From: Thermomicrobiales bacterium
GTDB lineage: Bacteria; Chloroflexota; Chloroflexia; Thermomicrobiales; CFX8
Assembly: GCA_023954495.1 (NCBI GenBank)
Contig: JAMLIA010000028.1
Span: forward strand, 1 to 39,631
DNA: 39,631 bases
Direction of reading: 5' to 3'
Shown here: piece after piece, positions 38,470-39,546 of the stretch
Position numbering within the stretch: the stretch's first letter is position 1
Layout: each line of letters opens with the position of its first letter
Notes under the pieces: generated by a model
Database searches by the model: none
What the model saw: only the letters and a program-made list of their open reading frames with translations
Told to the model about the DNA's origin: nothing
Program-made: the position numbers and the translations under genes

Positions 38470-38727
38470 GGAGCGATCCTGTCCGGGAGCGGAGGCGAGC
38501 GGCACGGCAGCGGATGCAGCAATTGTCTCACAAGGGGGAGTGGCTCATGATGCGAGCCACGACACCTTGCCAACGTTGGTCGGGAGCCATCGCCCAAGGG
38601 GCACCCGGGCAGCGGCCGGGGGTGAGGGCCGCGCCAACTTGTCTCGACAGGCGATTTAGCGCAGGATATCCGGGCGTGCGGTGATAGGGCCGGGCGCGGG
38701 GATCAGAGGTTGAGAGAGGCGGAGTCG

Positions 38728-39546
38728 ATGGAGAAGATCGCTCCACATCTGCCCGGGCCGGAGGAGCTGCCAGGGCGGACGCCGCTGCTGGGGCAGCCGG
38801 CGCCGGAGTTTCAGATGAAGGACGAGGAGGGGAACTTCGTCACCCTCCGCAGGCTGGTGAGACAGCGGCCGATTCTGCTGCACCTCTACCGGGGTGCCTG
38901 GTGACCCACTTGACGACTGTACCTGTCGCAGTTGCGACAGCACTACTGGGAACTGCGCGGCCTGGGCATCGACCTGATCGCGGCCGCAAACGATACTCCT
39001 GAGACAAATCGCGACCTGCGCGAGCGCTATGATCTGCCGTTCACCGTCCTGAGCGACGAGAACGGAGACGTGGCTGAGACGTATGGCGTGCTACACGAGA
39101 ACGAGCCGCGCGATCGACGGATCGCCCGTGTCTCGATGTTCCTGATTGAACCTGCTTCTGAGGGAGCGAAGATCGCCTGGGAGTACGCCGGGCCGACCTC
39201 GCGACATCGCGTTGCGCCGTCGCGGTTGAGCCAGGAGGTGCAGACCTACCTGGGCTTCGCGCACCAGACGGTCAGCCTGATCGTACCGTCGGCGTGGCGG
39301 GTCGAGCAGGTGATTGCCGGATTCCAGGACCCACCACTTGGGCTCTATCGCACGCCGGAGGAGATCAACGAGCCGGGCGTGATGGTGTATCGCGACTACA
39401 TGCGTGAGCTGGCGATGCAGGCGCACGGCGAGGTGTTCCGGCTGCAGAGCTCGGGCTGGACGCTGGCGGCGGTCTCGCCTGAGATGGAGGGCGAGATCAA
39501 TGTTGGGCAGCGCTATGTGTTCACACGAGATGTGGATGCGGGGTAG
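38728..39546 (+). CDS. Redoxin with double-selenocysteine UxxU motif (SelL/Prx-like, AhpC-TSA fold)
   Basis: A 272-residue thioredoxin-fold protein. From the ATG at 38728 it reads PAPEFQMKDEEGNFVTLRRL, then RPILLHLYRGAW, the lead-in to a redox motif that in relatives is Cys-x-x-Cys. Here the motif is TGA-CCC-ACT-TGA (38902-38913), i.e. Sec59-Pro-Thr-Sec62, and the same frame continues RLYLSQLRQHYWELRGLGID, LRERYDLPFTVLSDENGDVA and on to the TAG at 39544-39546. The fold, including the strand VSMFLIEP, continues seamlessly, so this is recoding rather than truncation. A SECIS-like hairpin follows at once. A diselenide UxxU is known in the SelL family. Its probable role is peroxide or disulfide reduction. 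The start has GAGAGGCGGAG upstream; a TTG at 38710 would add six residues. Without Sec insertion only a 58-residue fragment would be made. Confidence 0.85.
38923..38940 (+). promoter_or_regulatory. Bacterial SECIS-like hairpin
   Basis: CTGTCGC-AGTT-GCGACAG is a perfect 7-base stem with a four-base loop having G in its second position. The loop begins 16 bases after the second TGA and 25 after the first, within the 16-37 range described for bacterial SECIS elements, so one hairpin could serve both codons. GT/AC outside the stem may extend it past a small internal loop. Confidence 0.7.

Follow-up and report, generated by a model that had tools for sequence, protein, structure and literature searches.

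A peroxiredoxin-like gene of a Chloroflexota bacterium that almost certainly encodes two selenocysteines in a UxxU motif

Introduction

SelL, a diselenide protein found in aquatic animals and in certain bacteria, carries two selenocysteines (Sec, U) in a UxxU motif. Bacterial proteins with such motifs have been listed as a class, the "Prx-like thiol:disulfide oxidoreductase, PF00578, UxxC/UxxU", with one or two Sec per protein (PMC9312934, PMC13188914), and "Prx-like 2" from the GOS data is a bacterial UxxU protein described as a distant Prx homologue with low similarity to pfam04592, the SelP N-terminal region (PMC2398784). The bacterial SECIS (bSECIS) has been summarized as a hairpin with a loop of 3-9 nt, a stem of 4-16 bp, a spacing of 16-37 nt, an energy of -7.5 kcal/mol or lower, and a G within the first two loop positions (PMC13188914). 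Here, we analyze a gene in a Chloroflexota stretch of 39,631 nt (hereafter the window); we find it to be real, and its two in-frame TGA codons almost certainly encode two Sec at the active site of a redox enzyme.

Results

The gene and its reading frame were delimited as follows (window positions):

38721-38724, + strand: Shine-Dalgarno-like GGAG just 5' of the ATG, a putative ribosome-binding site read directly from the letters
38728-39546, + strand: UxxU Prx-like selenoprotein gene, 272 codons plus TAG, translated with TGA as U
38791-39153, + strand: AhpC/TSA (Prx-like, thioredoxin-fold) domain, residues 22-142
38902-38904, + strand: TGA read as Sec59 (Cys in CxxC relatives, TGA in orthologues)
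38911-38913, + strand: TGA read as Sec62 (Cys in UxxC and CxxC relatives, TGA in orthologues)
39256-39543, + strand: C-terminal DUF4177-like domain, approximately residues 177-272

With TGA translated as U, 58 codons precede the first TGA and 210 follow the second, and the redox-site motif reads RGAW-U-P-T-U (U59-P-T-U62). The preliminary description of this DNA had placed the two TGAs at both cysteines of the redox motif, and the translation and the alignment with CxxC relatives agree. Conventional ORF calling returns only a 204-aa ORF with a TTG start (38932-39546), which is the headless product that had been predicted for ordinary gene finders; standard annotation would split or drop a clean, conserved bacterial UxxU gene. 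The protein is a member of PF00578 (Pfam AhpC-TSA: 89.2 bits, cut-off 26). The C-terminal ~95 residues, modelled as beta-alpha-alpha-beta-beta, match DUF4177 below the Pfam cut-off in two orthologues (E = 3e-4 and 8e-4), and the match is not significant in the window copy in the Pfam profile search.

TGA terminates eight of the 20 long ORFs in the window, and is therefore not generally reassigned. Nothing was found to support a reading in which this organism translates UGA as Trp or Gly, and both sites align with Cys in relatives; we regard its probability as negligible.

We searched 61 genomes, i.e., the window's own and 60 relatives, for orthologues. Three are full length, with protein identities of 63% (G002), 53% (G004), and 51% (G003), and each has exactly two in-frame TGAs. 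They come from the same Chloroflexota family as the window but from three other genera, one each (Chloroflexi bacterium CFX8 and two Chloroflexia MAGs), and their motif region aligns without gaps (YRGxWUPTURL). No further orthologue was found at 1e-25 among 400 genomes drawn from the phylum, where the sole other match was a CxxC relative (FYRGAWCPYC). The sister family f2 has UxxC (FLRGFAUPHC, FRGHWUPPC), and the f3 relatives have CxxC (FYRGHWCGAC). Outside the phylum, a Bacillota MAG (FK3.bin120, L074:7977-8447) encodes a 157-aa UxxU redoxin with two TGAs (FYRGYWUGPURKQ) and the same downstream hairpin as the window gene, without the C-terminal domain, which suggests either that the UxxU clade extends further or that the gene was transferred horizontally. 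Since UxxU, UxxC, and CxxC relatives all align at residues 59 and 62, the exchange of Cys and Sec across the family falls on exactly these two positions; the alignment of CxxC homologues there had been proposed as a check on the gene.

The UxxC redoxins of the sister family, each with one in-frame TGA, lie at L033, L034, L035, and L036, and the same hairpin is present at L034 and L036. A tRNA-Sec was found in G020, G022, and G040.

Both UGAs are under selection, because all four orthologues (the window gene included) and the Bacillota homologue keep them. When the window gene is compared with G002, codons 63-210 differ at 40, 32, and 71 first, second, and third codon positions, respectively, and this enrichment at third positions indicates that the part 3' of the TGAs is under protein-level selection. 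These results bear on the possibility that the gene is a pseudogene or a product of sequencing error, i.e., a CxxC redoxin with two chance stops. The sequence does come from a MAG assembly, in which selC is missing. Against this, independent assemblies covering four genera of the family as well as the Bacillota MAG share the same two TGAs, the downstream part is under selection, and the hairpin is conserved. The preliminary description had considered two chance stops unlikely, and with both TGAs kept in the three orthologues of other genera and in the Bacillota homologue, comparison of the sequences makes pseudogene or error very improbable, the orthologues refuting it in practice.

A scan of viral contigs gave no match to the gene, and plasmid matches were distant (<60% identity), the best ones being annotated as ordinary peroxiredoxins. 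Neighbouring genes are not conserved from one orthologue locus to the next: the window has dihydroorotate dehydrogenase, and the other loci have genes for an MFS transporter, a phosphodiesterase-like protein, or ketol-acid reductoisomerase. Gene context is thus silent on function.

Downstream of the two TGAs lies a candidate element for Sec insertion:

38923-38940, + strand: putative bacterial SECIS hairpin CTGTCGC-AGTT-GCGACAG, 7-bp stem, 4-nt loop at 38930-38933

We aligned seven UGA-containing genes without gaps from the first UGA. The hairpin is at a fixed place in all seven, with 95.9% of the cells paired, and the loop is AGUU, or GGUU in one gene. Five of the seven stem pairs are invariant, and the outermost pair is broken in two genes. 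Pair 25/36, whose 3' side falls on the degenerate third position of an Arg codon, is U-A, U-G, G-C, or A-U and remains paired in every gene. The covariation score was matched by two of 500 shuffles, and every slid register scored lower, none coming close; coming from seven related sequences with one clearly covarying pair, this covariation supports the hairpin but does not prove it. The Leu codon on the loop side is TTG in all seven genes (TTG accounts for 8% of the Leu codons in the window). The energy of the window hairpin is -10.5 kcal/mol, only moderately better than that of shuffled sequences (z = -1.9), and no Rfam model matches it.

The loop lies 25 nt after UGA59 and 16 nt after UGA62, and the hairpin agrees with the published bSECIS rule from either UGA, 16 nt being the shortest spacing that the rule allows. 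A single hairpin may thus serve both UGAs, with no need for a second. That there is one hairpin for two UGAs, one of them at the spacing limit, would also fit a gene in which one UGA is decoded efficiently as Sec while the other mostly terminates or takes another residue, giving a mixed main product. Both UGAs are, however, kept in the four orthologues and the Bacillota homologue, and we consider such a mixed product unlikely.

Of the Sec machinery, the window's own genome encodes selA, selB, and selD, which score above the curated cut-offs with 495, 328, and 355 bits, respectively. An in-frame TGA also occurs in selD, at the usual Sec/Cys site of SelD (U30 in LASCAGUAAK), and a strong hairpin follows it. 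This locus (L017:1408-2496, - strand, G000:C99) is a second selenoprotein gene in the genome. Directly upstream of it is a thioredoxin-like gene (L017:2516-3364, - strand) encoding 282 aa with CGPC. The contig of selB (G000:C57) carries a T-box leader (L044:9175-9446, + strand, 101.9 bits).

The gene for tRNA-Sec, selC, was not recovered from the own assembly with the Rfam tRNA-Sec model, for which 150 of the 440 candidates were scored. Neither a DNA similarity search nor an exact pattern for the anticodon arm revealed it, although this pattern does recover selC in G002, G003, and G004, where tRNA-Sec(UCA) scores 75-78 bits. The best match of the tRNA-Sec model in the own genome (42 bits) is an ordinary tRNA-Ser, and all six matches to an anticodon plus T-arm pattern are non-tRNA. 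A homologue of a gene that lies near selC was located in the own genome (C6:24054-26147), where the context differs and no tRNA is nearby, so synteny is uninformative on the position of selC. Thus, of the sel genes that the preliminary description had proposed to look for, selA, selB, and selD are present in the own genome, whereas selC was found only in relatives. Lack of selB and selC from a complete genome had been named as evidence against a selenoprotein; this assembly, with 152 contigs and an estimated completeness of 96.45%, is incomplete, and its lack of selC is not of that kind.

The missing selC is the main weakness of the case, and a gap in the assembly is its simplest explanation. 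It could also mean that the family is a genuine selenoprotein family in which this lineage recently lost selC, leaving the gene no longer decoded. In keeping with such a loss, the same-genus genome G001 (89% complete) has neither a UxxU orthologue nor a recognizable selC, for which reason the use of Sec may be unevenly distributed within the genus. The own-genome selA, selB, and Sec-type selD are nevertheless intact and far above their cut-offs, and 152 contigs leave room for an absent gene of 97 nt; we give a recent loss little probability.

The closest solved structures by sequence and predicted fold are the PrxQ/Bcp proteins 2cx3, 4gqf, and 3hjp. Our structure model was built from only four sequences and has a mean pLDDT of 76.6, so that it is used for the fold only. 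In it, the W-U-P-T-U motif opens the first long helix (residues 60-78). U62 aligns with the peroxidatic Cys of PrxQ, and U59 corresponds to the first Cys in the thioredoxin/ResA-type WCxxC. The PxxxTxxC motif of peroxiredoxins is absent (R55 replaces Pro and U59 replaces Thr), and the protein is therefore Prx-like and not a canonical peroxiredoxin. No signal peptide or membrane anchor was seen. Fold and motif, with U59 as the first Cys of WCxxC, favour a cytosolic selenol/diselenide oxidoreductase, which probably reduces peroxides or disulfides and is recharged by a thioredoxin-type partner.

Discussion

Our interpretation, which we hold to be very probably correct, is that this is a selenoprotein gene in which one SECIS hairpin causes both UGA59 and UGA62 to be read as Sec, to yield a Prx-like selenol oxidoreductase. 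SelB and tRNA-Sec would decode both codons, with the hairpin downstream directing both insertions. In the cytosolic product, Sec59 and Sec62, at the N-terminal end of the first long helix of the thioredoxin fold, would alternate between the selenol state and a diselenide formed within the molecule, and peroxides or disulfides would probably be reduced with electrons from a thioredoxin-type donor. A double-Sec UxxU redoxin in Chloroflexota, as the preliminary description had proposed, is borne out by the orthologues, the conserved SECIS-like hairpin, and the genomic selA, selB, and Sec-type selD.

The gene offers a compact system for studying how one SECIS hairpin might serve two nearby UGAs, and with UxxU, UxxC, and CxxC states all among its relatives, one can ask what a diselenide gains. 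It also indicates that a Chloroflexota family known here only from metagenome assemblies uses Sec. We lean toward viewing the gene as a distinct Prx-like branch with a DUF4177-like fusion, one SECIS for UGAs nine nucleotides apart, and an obligate diselenide enzyme in Chloroflexota.

Several known systems share the motif or the fold. Membership in the SelL family, suggested in the preliminary description, did not hold by the NCBIfam model: the two have UxxU in a Prx-like fold in common, but SelL lacks the extra C-terminal domain, and the window protein scores 35.2 bits against a cut-off of 120 with the SelL-related NF040769. The shorter relatives, UxxC ones and the Bacillota UxxU protein, come nearer to this cut-off but also fall below it (82 and 69 bits, respectively). 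PrxQ/Bcp proteins, the best structural matches, have their peroxidatic Cys at the position of U62 and, unlike the window protein (R55, U59), retain PxxxTxxC. The ResA/TlpA-type oxidoreductases share the W-C/U-P-x-C/U motif, and the NCBIfam ResA match is significant at 42 bits, although below the cut-off of 170; the window protein differs from them in having no visible signal peptide or anchor and in its C-terminal half. The GOS "Prx-like 2" (PMC2398784) likewise has UxxU, whereas the window protein is a clear PF00578 member, a distinction drawn from the published description.

The best fit is the listed PF00578 UxxC/UxxU class, with which the window protein shares the AhpC/TSA domain and Sec in a CxxC-type motif. 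It differs from the class as described, of which WP_010940744.1 is the listed example, in its additional DUF4177-like C-terminal domain, and its branch spans four genera within a single Chloroflexota family. No description of this branch was found in the literature searched, of which coverage was partial. Because UxxU Prx-like proteins are already a listed class, the gene is a member or branch of a known kind, and arguably a new branch of it.
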